From positions 1 to 23,180 of IMG/VR virus record IMGVR_UViG_3300048837_002274: a stretch of DNA of 23,180 nucleotides. The stretch is one strand, 5' to 3'. This document shows, piece by piece, positions 5,590 to 9,966 of the stretch. The translations under genes were made by a program, and so were the position numbers. The stretch is from a virus. Position 1 is the stretch's first letter; each line of letters begins with the position of its first letter. The notes beneath the pieces are model-generated. The model did no database searches, was not told the DNA's origin, and was given only the letters and a program-made list of their open reading frames with translations.

Positions 5590-5945
5590 GCTTCCACGTG
5601 AACGCCGCCGGCGTACTGGTTGGCGACGCTACCGAGTGGCGGGAATGGACCGGCAAGGGTCGCCAGGCGATCACCATCGGGCTCTGGGAGTGCGCGGACG
5701 GCTGGCGTCACTCGCAGCACCTGCGCTTCCCGAACGGGGGGTACAGCGCCGCAGCACTCATGCGCGACCCGGCCTTCCCCTCGAAGCACGATGCCCTTCG
5801 GTTCGCGGTCATCGAAGCGCGCGGCATGCTCAATGGTTCGCTGAGCTACGAATCGAAAGACCTCGGGTCTGCCGTGGCTTGGTTGGATGGGCTGATCACG
5901 GATCCCACGCAGGCTGACTTGTTCGCGGCGGGAGGTGGACGGTGA
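5586..5945 (+). CDS. Hypothetical protein with C-terminal QADLF motif
   Basis: A 119-residue protein from GTG 5586, preceded by GGGAGGGGGG and overlapping the previous stop. The N-terminal half is beta-rich with several Trp (W18, W21, W34, W40, W99). The middle is helical (HDALRFAVIEARGML). The C-terminus carries QADLF at residues 109-113, close to the consensus of bacterial sliding-clamp (DnaN) binding pentapeptides (QLxLF-type), just before a flexible AAGGGR tail. Clamp binding is an inference from this motif alone. No enzymatic domain is recognised. It ends in a GTGA overlap with the HNH-like gene. Confidence 0.6.
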   Translation: MSFHVNAAGVLVGDATEWREWTGKGRQAITIGLWECADGWRHSQHLRFPNGGYSAAALMRDPAFPSKHDALRFAVIEARGMLNGSLSYESKDLGSAVAWLDGLITDPTQADLFAAGGGR

Positions 5946-6292
5946 AGCGGCTCGGCCAGATCAAGCGGAAGAGGCCCCTGCCCCGCTCCTCGGCTGCGCT
6001 CAAGCGTCGGAAGCGCCTCAAGGCAACCAACGCATACCACCGGAAGGAGTGGCGCGCCCTGGTGCGTCAAGTCCGTAAGCGTTCAGGTGGCGTGTGCGAG
6101 CTGCGGATCCGCTGCAATGGCGCACCAGCTCAGGGGGACCCTCATCACCACGGGTATGACGAGCGGTTCGTTGGCTGGCGCCGGCTGATCGTGCCGCTCC
6201 ACGACCTCTCGGACACGTGCTACGAATGCCACAAGGCAGTGCACTCCGCACCGGGGACGCTACCGCCGATCGAGGAGGACTTCCTGTCATGA
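5942..6292 (+). CDS. HNH endonuclease-like protein
   Basis: A 116-residue protein starting at GTG 5942 with a very basic N-terminal 45 residues (KRLGQIKRKRPLPRSS, then KRRKRLK). It continues with a zinc/HNH-like core: C52 and C58, the His triplet H68-H70 in GDPHHHGY, then C93-x2-C96 followed by H97 and H101 (CYECHKAVH). This resembles the HNH/ββα-metal fold, in which the first His acts as general base and the last helix supplies metal ligands. HNH proteins are often encoded near terminase genes and in some phages are needed for DNA cleavage during packaging. Here the terminase lies about 1.3 kb downstream. A nicking role is inferred. It ends in an ATGA overlap. Confidence 0.7.
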   Translation: MKRLGQIKRKRPLPRSSAALKRRKRLKATNAYHRKEWRALVRQVRKRSGGVCELRIRCNGAPAQGDPHHHGYDERFVGWRRLIVPLHDLSDTCYECHKAVHSAPGTLPPIEEDFLS

Positions 6293-6786: not shown

Positions 6787-7320
6787 GTGTCGAGCCGAGG
6801 GAGCCAGCACCCAAAGCGAACCGATCGCACCGATCACCACCAGGTCACGCCCCATCAGCTGGTGACGCTGCTCAGGGCAGACCCGGCCCTGCGTCGTGCA
6901 GACCGCATCGGCATCGGCCTATCGATGCACGCGGACGGATTCTCGACGCGCGACATCGCACGCGTAGCCTCGCTGCGGTGGTCCACGCTCGTCGAGATGC
7001 GACGGCTGCTCGGGCTGCCCCAGCGGCCGCGAGGCGCAGCTACGACCAACGTGCACAAGCCTGACCTCTACCCGCCTCCCCGCTCGCTCGTGCTGGCTGT
7101 CGCGGTCCTGGTGAGGACTGAAGACATCTGGACCGCCTCACGCCGACTCGGCATCGGCGAGATGACCGCGTATGGGATCCGGCGTGCCATCCAGTACGCG
7201 CTCGAGCTGCAGGCGGACCCTCAGGTGCCTCCTCAGTTCCGATGCCCTGAGTGCGAGCAGCGCGGCCCGCGGCACCCCTGCGCACACTGCGGTCACGAGT
7301 GGCTGCAGGACGCCGCGTGA
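6787..7320 (+). CDS. Two-HTH protein with C-terminal zinc ribbon (possible late regulator)
   Basis: A 177-residue protein starting at GTG 6787 after an AGCAGGAG site. An N-terminal basic tail precedes a helix-turn-helix-like unit at about residues 48-76 (GFSTRDIARVASLRWSTLVEMRRL). A second such unit lies at about 112-137 (TASRRLGIGEMTAYGIRRAI). A zinc ribbon occupies the C-terminus (C153, C156, C165, C168). The architecture suggests DNA binding. It lies directly before the presumed packaging site and terminase, so it could regulate late transcription or act in packaging-site recognition. Both roles are inferences from position. It stops in a TGATG overlap with a short ORF across the following interval. 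Confidence 0.65.
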   Translation: MSSRGSQHPKRTDRTDHHQVTPHQLVTLLRADPALRRADRIGIGLSMHADGFSTRDIARVASLRWSTLVEMRRLLGLPQRPRGAATTNVHKPDLYPPPRSLVLAVAVLVRTEDIWTASRRLGIGEMTAYGIRRAIQYALELQADPQVPPQFRCPECEQRGPRHPCAHCGHEWLQDAA

Positions 7321-7547
7321 TGCGCGCCACGAGGCATCCTGGGGGCTCACTGGGGCGCCCAGCGCCAACCGTTCCGGGTTGGAACGTTGTCGCGAAGTGC
7401 AACAACGTTGCGGCCTGCAACGTTCCAGCTTGTAACGGGTCCTCCCAGGCACCCCCACCGGGCGCGGGTAGCGGCGAGGCTCGGGCATTGTCCACACACC
7501 AAGTGTTGATAAGTAGGGGTCCGCTCCCGGTCGGTGTTGCCGTCTAA
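7320..7547 (+). CDS. Uncertain 75-codon ORF spanning the pre-terminase interval
   Basis: An ORF that exactly fills the space between the HTH gene and the small terminase. It has TGATG at its start and TAATG at its end, so both junctions look translationally coupled. The protein is odd: a central stretch of Cys-Asn repeats (residues 22-39, including CNN, ACN and PACN) followed by a Gly/Ala/Pro-rich tail. The Cys-Asn repeats are the direct reading of AACGTT DNA repeats that may instead be binding sites. There is no recognisable domain and no strong ribosome-binding site of its own. It may be a real small protein, or a fortuitous ORF over a cos-like region. Confidence 0.3.
   Translation: MRATRHPGGSLGRPAPTVPGWNVVAKCNNVAACNVPACNGSSQAPPPGAGSGEARALSTHQVLISRGPLPVGVAV
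7350..7440. promoter_or_regulatory. Putative cos/terminase-binding region (AACGTT repeats)
   Basis: This ~90-bp stretch upstream of the small terminase holds three AACGTT cores at 7383, 7404 and 7419 plus related AACCGTT at 7367 and TAACGG at 7433. They include a perfect 10-bp inverted repeat (TGGAACGTTG 7380-7389 with CAACGTTCCA 7418-7427), the palindrome CAACGTTG (7403-7410) and a small inverted repeat CGTTCC/GGAACG (7370-7386). A GC-rich near-palindrome, CTGGGGCGCCCAG (7350-7362), lies just to the left. In lambda, cosN and the terminase-binding cosB R-sites lie in this position relative to Nu1. The match here is positional and structural, not by sequence. No convincing promoter was found. 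Confidence 0.4.
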
Positions 7548-8041
7548 TGGCTGAGCACATCATCCAGAAAGACCTCGCAACCCGGCTCGGGCTCGATGTT
7601 CGGCAGATCCGTCGCCTCGAGGATGCCGGGATGCCGACTCGCGTCCGCAAGGGTCGGAAGGATTACCCGTGGCCTGGGTCGCTCCACTGGTACCTCGATT
7701 GGAAGGTGCAGTCAGAACTCGCGCGGCGCGCGCCCGGTGAGAAGTCGGACCTCGAGACGCGCGAGCTCGCGGCCAAGGTTCGGCTCGCCGAGATCAAGGT
7801 CGCGGAAGCCGAAGGGAAGACCATTCCGGTGCCGATCGTGAATCGCCGGTTCGAGGTCATCCACCAGCAGACCGCCGGCGCCATCCGGGCTCTGCGGCAG
7901 TACGCCGGTGACTTCGTCGGTTTAACGACGCTCGCGGAAGCCACACTCCGCTGCGAACGCATTGCCAACGAGCTGCTCGCACGAGCGCGCGCGGACGATG
8001 AGGACGACGAAGAGCCACCAGCGGACCCGGCGGCGGCATGA
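7547..8041 (+). CDS. Terminase small subunit (Nu1-like)
   Basis: A 164-residue protein with the layout of lambda Nu1. An N-terminal winged-HTH-like domain (about residues 4-50; IIQKDLATRLGLDVRQIRRLEDAGMP) is followed by a charged helical dimerisation or assembly region (about 65-150) and an acidic tail (DDEDDEEPP). By family knowledge it binds the packaging site and delivers the large subunit. The start at 7547 overlaps the upstream ORF stop (TAATG), and its own stop overlaps the large terminase ATG by four bases. Its position directly before a gpA-like gene is what makes the assignment secure, because the sequence similarity I can see is modest. Confidence 0.85.
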   Translation: MAEHIIQKDLATRLGLDVRQIRRLEDAGMPTRVRKGRKDYPWPGSLHWYLDWKVQSELARRAPGEKSDLETRELAAKVRLAEIKVAEAEGKTIPVPIVNRRFEVIHQQTAGAIRALRQYAGDFVGLTTLAEATLRCERIANELLARARADDEDDEEPPADPAAA

Positions 8042-9966
8042 TCGCGCTCGTGGAGGAGGAAGTCGAGGAAGAGTTCACCGTCGAGGGTGCCGAGGAGCGG
8101 TGCCGTGACCTCGACAGGGCACTCCGCCGCAAGATCTACCGGACCCAAGACTGGCTCACGACCAGCCAGTGGGCGGAGAAGTATCTCTGGCTCTCCCCGG
8201 AAGACACCGGCGAGTTGCTGAAGTACAAGCTCTCGCTCACGCCCTGGCATCGTGAGCCGATGGACGCGCTCGGCGACCTTCGGGTCCGCCGCGTCGTGCT
8301 CAAGTGGGCCAGTCAGACGGGCAAATCAACGCTCTACAAGGCGGACATGGGGGCACGGACCCACCAGCGACCCAGTCCGATGATCTACGTCTTCCCCCGT
8401 GTCGAAGACGCGGAGCTGTTCTCGAAGGAGCGGCTCGATCCGATGTTTCGCGACACCCCCATCCTCCAGGGGCTGATCAGCGACGCCACTCGCGACAAGC
8501 GCAATACGATGCGGCGGAAGTCGATTCCCGCTGGCTACATCGGCCTCGTGGGTTCGAACTCACCGGCCGCTCTCGCGGCACGGTCCTCACCGGTCGTGCG
8601 GGCCGATGAGGTGAACCGCATGGCTGAGAGCGCGGGCGACGAGGGCGATCCGCTCGGCATCATCTTCCGCCGCATGGCGCGATTCGAGTTCAGCTCCTTT
8701 GCCGCCGCCTCCTCGCCGACGATCGAGGGCGCGTGCCGGATCACCTCGGAGTACGCCACTACGGACCAGCGTGAATGGTGGGTCCCCTGCCCCCACTGCG
8801 ACGTGCCCCAGATGTTGCGCTTCGGTGGTCGCGACACGGAGTGGGGAATCAAATGGGTCTCCGGTCGGCCAGAGACCGCCGTCTACGTCTGTTGCCACTG
8901 CTCGAAAAGCATCGCTGAGCACTACAAGGCGGAGATGAACGCTGGCGCTGAGTGGGTACCGCAGGTTCCCGACATGCTCGACCGAGGGTACTGGCTGAAT
9001 GCGCTGGTGAGCCCCTTTGCGGGAGCCAGGTGGCCCCGGCTCGTTGCCGAGTTTCTGGAGAAGAAGGCCGACCCAACGAAGCTGCAGGGCTTCGTCAACA
9101 CGGTCCTGTGCGAGACCTGGCGCGAGGACGGGGTGCAAGCGTCCGAGGAGGAATTGCTTGAGCGCCTGGAGGCCTATGACCCGTCCCTCTCCGATGAGGC
9201 GAGGCCCATACCAGCTGGCGCGGCGATCATCACACGATCTGTGGACGTGCAGGATGACCGTCTCGAGACGGCCGTGTGGGCCTTCGGCGCCGACGACGAG
9301 AGCTGGCTCATTGACTACGACTACATCCCCGGTGATCCCGGTACCGGTACGCCGTGGCGCGAACTCACCGATATCCGCGCCCGGACCTACCGTCATGCGA
9401 GCGGGCATGAGCTGAAGCCGTTCGCCACCTTCATCGACTCCGGCGGTCACCACACTCAGATGGTCTACCGGTACGCCAAGCGCTACATCCGGGACAACGT
9501 CTGGGCGATCAGGGGCGTCGAGGGTGAGGGTGCGCCCATCCTGGGCAAGCCCAGCCGGAACAACTCGGCGAAGGTCACCGTGTATGCCGTGTCGAGCTTC
9601 AGCGGCAAAGAGACGTTCCTGAAGCGGTTGATCAAAGTCACCGAACCAGGACCCGCCTTCGTGCATCTCCCCCACTGGCTGGAAGGGGAGCAGCTCCGGC
9701 AGTTCGGGAATGAGCAGCTGGTGCCGCGGTTCGTCAACGGCCGCCTCAAACGCGTCTGGGTCCGCAAGGGCCCCAACGAAATGATCGACCTTGCCGTGTA
9801 CGCGCTCGCCGCCCTGCAGCTGCTGGGTGAGAAGAAGCTCGCGGAGCTCGGCGCCGTCGCCCAGTGGATGATGGACAACCCGCCCAATCCGGCCAATGGC
9901 TCCACCTCTGAGGTGGTGCCGAACGTTCCGCGTCGCCGGGTCCGTTCCGCGGGGGTGCAGGTGTAG
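8038..9966 (+). CDS. Terminase large subunit (lambda gpA-like)
   Basis: A 642-residue packaging motor and nuclease of the GpA family, the same length class as lambda gpA (641 residues). The N-terminal ATPase has Walker A ASQTGKST at residues 91-98 and a Walker B-type DE at 190-191 (VRADEVNR). A CxxC pair at 251/254 and another at 285/288 suggest a zinc ribbon. The C-terminal nuclease domain carries acidic residues D403 (SVDVQDD), D467 (TFIDSGG) and D584 (MIDLAVYAL), consistent with an RNase H-like metal site. It would cut at cos and translocate DNA through the portal. It overlaps the small subunit by four bases, and a 40-bp gap follows. Confidence 0.95.
   Translation: MIALVEEEVEEEFTVEGAEERCRDLDRALRRKIYRTQDWLTTSQWAEKYLWLSPEDTGELLKYKLSLTPWHREPMDALGDLRVRRVVLKWASQTGKSTLYKADMGARTHQRPSPMIYVFPRVEDAELFSKERLDPMFRDTPILQGLISDATRDKRNTMRRKSIPAGYIGLVGSNSPAALAARSSPVVRADEVNRMAESAGDEGDPLGIIFRRMARFEFSSFAAASSPTIEGACRITSEYATTDQREWWVPCPHCDVPQMLRFGGRDTEWGIKWVSGRPETAVYVCCHCSKSIAEHYKAEMNAGAEWVPQVPDMLDRGYWLNALVSPFAGARWPRLVAEFLEKKADPTKLQGFVNTVLCETWREDGVQASEEELLERLEAYDPSLSDEARPIPAGAAIITRSVDVQDDRLETAVWAFGADDESWLIDYDYIPGDPGTGTPWRELTDIRARTYRHASGHELKPFATFIDSGGHHTQMVYRYAKRYIRDNVWAIRGVEGEGAPILGKPSRNNSAKVTVYAVSSFSGKETFLKRLIKVTEPGPAFVHLPHWLEGEQLRQFGNEQLVPRFVNGRLKRVWVRKGPNEMIDLAVYALAALQLLGEKKLAELGAVAQWMMDNPPNPANGSTSEVVPNVPRRRVRSAGVQV

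Follow-up and report, generated by a model that had tools for sequence, protein, structure and literature searches.

A predicted lambda-type cos site and an adjoining AACGTT palindrome array upstream of the terminase genes of an uncultivated virus

The 226-bp intergenic region in front of the terminase genes of a 23,180-base virus record from IMG/VR (the window, by which we mean the whole stretch analyzed) very probably contains a lambda-type cos site at positions 7437 to 7478, and for this cos core, predicted from the nucleotide sequence, we estimate a probability of about 0.88. The evidence is computational and consists of the cos block itself, its spacing, its conservation in other phages, and the places where the contig of a relative begins and ends. 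The cos is of a known kind, whereas the AACGTT array that adjoins it is unexplained and possibly new. All genes of the locus lie on the + strand, in the order of a gene at 6787 to 7320, the intergenic region, the small terminase gene terS (7547 to 8041), and the large terminase gene terL (8038 to 9966), with portal and capsid genes after the latter. TerS has a gpNu1-type winged-helix DNA-binding domain (phrog_57, E 2.4e-12). Its N-terminal domain weakly matches the PDB sequences 6hn7 and 1j9i, which are solved TerS DNA-binding domains and the second of which we take to be that of lambda gpNu1; the structure model, good in the DNA-binding domain only, gave 6hn7_B as the best fold match of that domain (Foldseek E 0.05, probability 1.0). 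TerL belongs to the gpA family (PF05876, PF20454, and phrog_15), so that the terminase pair characteristic of a lambda-type cos is found just downstream. Searches of the intergenic region against named phages returned no DNA similarity, tblastn with TerS and the 6787 to 7320 protein gave no match in named phages, and Rfam returned no RNA family for the region.

The cos core begins with the heptamer GGGTCCT (7437 to 7443, + strand), identical to the heptamer at the right end of lambda, and by analogy with lambda it is presumably the packaging-termination signal. The predicted cosN follows at 7467 to 7478, with its start 30 nt from that of the heptamer, a distance shared by the window, lambda, and the two relatives L004 and L109. 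In lambda, the right end has ACGGGTCCT, and counting 30 nt from the first G of the heptamer leads exactly to the left cohesive end, CG^GGGCGGCGACCT (caret, nick); at an identical distance, the window and L004 both have CG^GGTAGCGGCG. The window thus shares with the lambda (gpNu1/gpA) cos an arrangement of GGGTCCT, 30 nt, and CG^GG(T/G)..GCGGCG-like core, as well as a downstream terS followed by terL in the same orientation. The top-strand nick is predicted after 7466 (CG^GG) and would be followed by GGTAGCGGCGAG; assuming an overhang of exactly 12 nt, the right-flank CG is absent from the window, with the distance and the left CG^GG both present. In the mechanism that we propose, GGGTCCT would act as cosQ and stop packaging, and the gpA-type TerL would nick cosN in a staggered fashion to leave the 12-nt 5' overhang. 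In lambda-like phages, the 7-bp cosQ is highly conserved and required for termination, and cosB, to the right of cosN, carries TerS specificity (PMC4669245, PMC9026076). The sequence-only reading had placed a cos/terminase-binding site at 7350 to 7440; the region does very probably hold a lambda-type cos, but the anatomy proposed for it was wrong, with the predicted cosQ and cosN lying at or past the right edge of that interval.

The block is conserved in related viruses. L004, the nearest relative covering the region (TerL 68-70% amino acid identity), retains 7435 to 7502 at 75% identity next to DNA that could not be aligned, and it retains ACGGGTCCTCCC and CGGGTAGCGGCGnGGCTCG...TTnTCCACAC. 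L006 (81% at the DNA level) breaks off within TerL. L109, found by way of the upstream protein, is a third member with the order HTH protein, cos, TerS and retains GGGTCCT, the 30-nt distance, and the element at bp 22-31 described below. GGGTCCT was also found in G001, L064, L065, L068, L073, L075, L077, L079, L081, L082, L087, L092, L096, BZS1, and Arya. When the degenerate pattern GGGTCCTNCC-N12-28-GGGTAGCG was scanned over 2.9 million viral contigs, 35 matches were obtained; TerL was located downstream of the match in approximately 10 independent phages besides this one, some of whose TerLs share only 28-34% identity, and every match with a downstream TerL had a spacer gap of 14-19. The form GGGTCCTNCC-N(12-19)-GGGTAGCG works as a cos search pattern for metagenomic phages with gpA terminases, and exact genome-end coordinates are hereby predicted for an uncultivated phage group.

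The termini of other genomes agree with the predicted cut. Contig G001 (43,694 bases) begins with TGGTAGCGCTACCCCC and ends with ...GGGTCCTTCC...TGCGGGTAGCGCTACC, both termini being within the predicted cosN. Its start is T followed by GGTAGCGCTACC, its end is ...GC followed by GGGTAGCGCTACC, and the 12-mer GGTAGCGCTACC is common to both, the same length as the lambda overhang. The 12-mer is a perfect palindrome, which we counted against the cos reading, but a k-mer assembly breaking there by chance is unlikely. G001 (ends L117 and L118) is classed as 'linear' despite having both ends in cosN, and it probably represents the entire genome of a cos phage, overlooked owing to its short end repeat. 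In Serratia phage BZS1, which also has a gpA-type TerL, GGGTCCTTCC is followed 31 nt after the first G of GGGTCCT by CGG^G... and the 12-nt end GCATTGCGCGCC; these ends were mapped by PhageTerm read mapping and PCR (PMC7556043). BZS1 differs from the window in its cosN sequence and in having no AACGTT array. The deposited records of Arya, Lily, Lagaffe, and Shimadzu likewise start a short way ahead of terS, after a related motif. On the basis of these comparisons, we infer that this phage is nicked at the predicted cosN bases.

To the right of cosN, the window carries a conserved DnaA-box-like decamer, TTGTCCACAC (7488 to 7497, + strand), spanning bp 22-31 as counted from the predicted left end. 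Its counterparts, TTTTCCACAC in L004 and ATTTGCACAC in L109, occupy exactly bp 22-31 as well, a position corresponding to the I2 segment of lambda, which covers bp 18-50 (PMC4856287). The element may serve packaging, as an I2- or R-like sequence, or be bound by a host factor. When cosN combined with the TTNTCCACA element was used as a scan pattern, only this virus, L004, and chance matches lacking a terminase were recovered. No repeat enrichment was detected right of cosN in the window (z -1.3), and neither recognizable R sequences nor the repeated R sites or IHF site of a cosB were found there, a difference from lambda; right-side repeats are present, as expected of cosB, in L079, L087, L077, L082, and BZS1. 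The terS start codon is at bp 81 counted from the predicted left end, compared with bp 191 in lambda. N15 has a single R site (R3) and terS at bp 89 (PMC9026076). With its short cosN-terS distance and at most one conserved element between the two, the window resembles the N15 cos, which has no IHF site, and a single-R layout is possible by this analogy; the element differs in location (bp 22-31 versus bp 48-60 for R3), the two having been compared by position alone. The segment from 7479 to the terS start would hold the I2/cosB function in a form as compact as that of N15.

The array lies at 7366 to 7436, or -71 to -1 relative to cosQ. All motif positions given by the sequence-only reading were correct: AACGTT occurs at 7383, 7404, and 7419, AACCGTT at 7366, and TAACGG at 7433; CAACGTTG is located at 7403, and TGGAACGTTG (7380 to 7389) is perfectly complementary, inverted, to CAACGTTCCA (7418 to 7427). 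The palindromes are centered at 7370.5 (an imperfect, degenerate unit), 7385.5, 7406.5, 7421.5, and 7436.5, with spacings of 15, 21, 15, and 15, and the last is a half-site directly abutting GGGTCCT. The cluster is real and nonrandom, because three AACGTT so close together (within 42 bp) were found in 0/300 third-order Markov simulations of the window and 0/2000 dinucleotide shuffles of 7321 to 7546. The whole window has five AACGTT compared with a mean of 1.3 in shuffles. Short-range dyads with 6-bp arms numbered 6 versus 1.2 expected (6 of 500 shuffles reached that count), and the 80 bp bordering cosQ on the left scored z = 5.7 for repeated 5-mers, although this ranked only third among 578 intervals of the record. 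The 10-bp inverted repeat is unremarkable by itself, since 68 of 500 shuffles contained some 10-bp inverted repeat. Foldability is likewise unremarkable (z = -2), and the region was rejected as a hairpin or terminator on the basis of this z value and the absence of a T-run. It was also set aside as an iteron/origin, as the sole DnaA-box-like element (7488) is beyond cosN and outside the array, whose GC content is 58%. Across IMG/VR, the precise arrangement AACGTT-N15-AACGTT-N9-AACGTT is confined to contigs belonging to this virus. L004 and L109, the closest two relatives, keep the cos core without AACGTT motifs, and the array is absent from the other phages examined, so the conservation in related phages looked for by the sequence-only reading is missing. 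Its view of the repeats as cosB-like fails by position, because the array is on the cosQ side and the cosB of lambda is between cosN and terS.

For the array we offer several readings, graded by likelihood. Our tentative preference, at slightly below even odds, is for a left-hand arm, specific to this lineage, that would be bound by TerS or by a terminase accessory protein, with the recognized motif switching together with TerS. This reading is supported by a shared register and by mirror arrays in L004. The window units TGCAAC/TGTAAC (TGYAAC) and the L004 units TGCCAT/TGCCAC (TGCCAY) all lie at -21/-6 from cosQ, a register based on two sequences. L004 has GCCAC, GCCAT, and GCCAC left of its cosQ, at -32, -20, and -5, and, as a mirror image right of cosN, TGGC at +95, +110, and +122, such that arrays of GCCAY/TGGCR units (L004:708-739 and L004:834-866) flank the cos core with an inverted match of 23/30, a value reached by 0/100 shuffles. 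The same test in 16 further phages left L004 as the only one with a significant inverted match. When the window is compared with L004, changes in the DNA-binding domain of TerS are seen in the presumed recognition helix and wing, but the upstream protein has nearly identical predicted HTH helices in the two; this comparison of two sequences favors TerS over the upstream protein as the binder. Counted against a left arm are the lack of any AACGTT unit right of cosN in the window (0 copies, with an inverted left-right match no better than shuffles, 76/100) and the absence of the array from L109 and others. A TerS site on the left only would not fit the lambda mechanism, in which terminase remains on the right, where cosB is. 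Should the flanking arrays be TerS sites, the window and L004 would form a natural case in which TerS and its DNA target change in concert, with the target on the unexpected side of cosQ. A broader proposal, which we consider doubtful, is a bilateral cos in which TerS arrays occupy the cosQ side (window) or both sides in mirror image (L004), abut cosQ in a 15-bp register, and have a motif that switches along with the TerS winged helix; such an architecture is not described for lambda, 21, or N15.

An unlikely but serious alternative to TerS binding is that the array is a transcriptional operator of the terminase/late operon, bound by the neighboring protein or by another phage regulator. RinA-type late activators are encoded directly before terS and act upstream of it; the window also has a DNA-binding-protein-like gene before terS, a likeness of gene position alone. 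The 6787 to 7320 product, a 177-amino acid HTH-like/zinc-ribbon-like protein (C-x2-C...C-x2-C) directly upstream of the cos region, is a possible regulator. It shows 51% identity to its equivalent in L004 and 39% to that in L109, at an equal position in both; Pfam returned only sub-threshold matches, and the AlphaFold model (pLDDT 42) was too poor for use. The form and location of the array suit an operator, with palindromes at regular spacing that lie between the gene for a putative DNA-binding protein and the first of the late genes, as does the overlap of the right-hand L004 array with the terS start. However, AACGTT is gone from L004 even though the predicted recognition helices of the upstream protein are nearly unchanged there, and a conserved operator motif is not seen. 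Only approximately 40-50 bp separate the upstream gene from cosQ in L004 and L109, no sigma-70-like promoter or terminator was detected in a scan of the region, and there are no further array copies at other promoters (AACGTT is missing from the 9.8 kb upstream and occurs twice downstream, in coding sequence).

It is improbable, though still conceivable, that the array is neutral, being extra intergenic DNA made of short inverted duplications in this lineage only. Consistent with this idea, the intergenic region is approximately 75 bp longer than that of L004, all relatives examined lack the array, and the repeat score is only the third highest of the record. A regular 15-bp step, palindromic units, and an array end that exactly abuts cosQ are improbable by chance, and the L004 repeats in the same register also argue against neutrality.

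We consider it very improbable that the array is a parS-like palindrome cluster for the virus's own ParB-like protein. That protein is encoded at L130:2057-3691 on contig G006, which overlaps the window and reaches approximately 9 kb past its left end, and carries ParB_N and HTH_ParB domains. Written as CGTTSC-N5-GSAACG palindromes, the array loosely resembles parS half-sites, but its spacer has 5 nt where parS has 4, the sequence is not that of parS, and no independent copy is present near the parB gene. Furthermore, relatives of the ParB-like protein are found in G003, G004, G011, and G013, phages that share the cos block but have no such array at cos. The proposal that the near-palindrome CTGGGGCGCCCAG (7350 to 7362) is the cut site, with the AACGTT repeats as cosB to its right, has a negligible chance of being correct: the order cut site, repeats, terS would resemble lambda, but the palindrome is not conserved, being absent from L004, and the conserved cosQ-cosN block is instead to the right of the repeats. 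Elsewhere in the region, an IstB/DnaC-like ATPase is encoded at L130:5159-6055, and an HNH-endonuclease-like protein (phrog_144, E 4e-5) is encoded at 5942 to 6292, approximately 1.1 kb upstream of cos; HNH endonucleases often neighbor cos-phage terminases.
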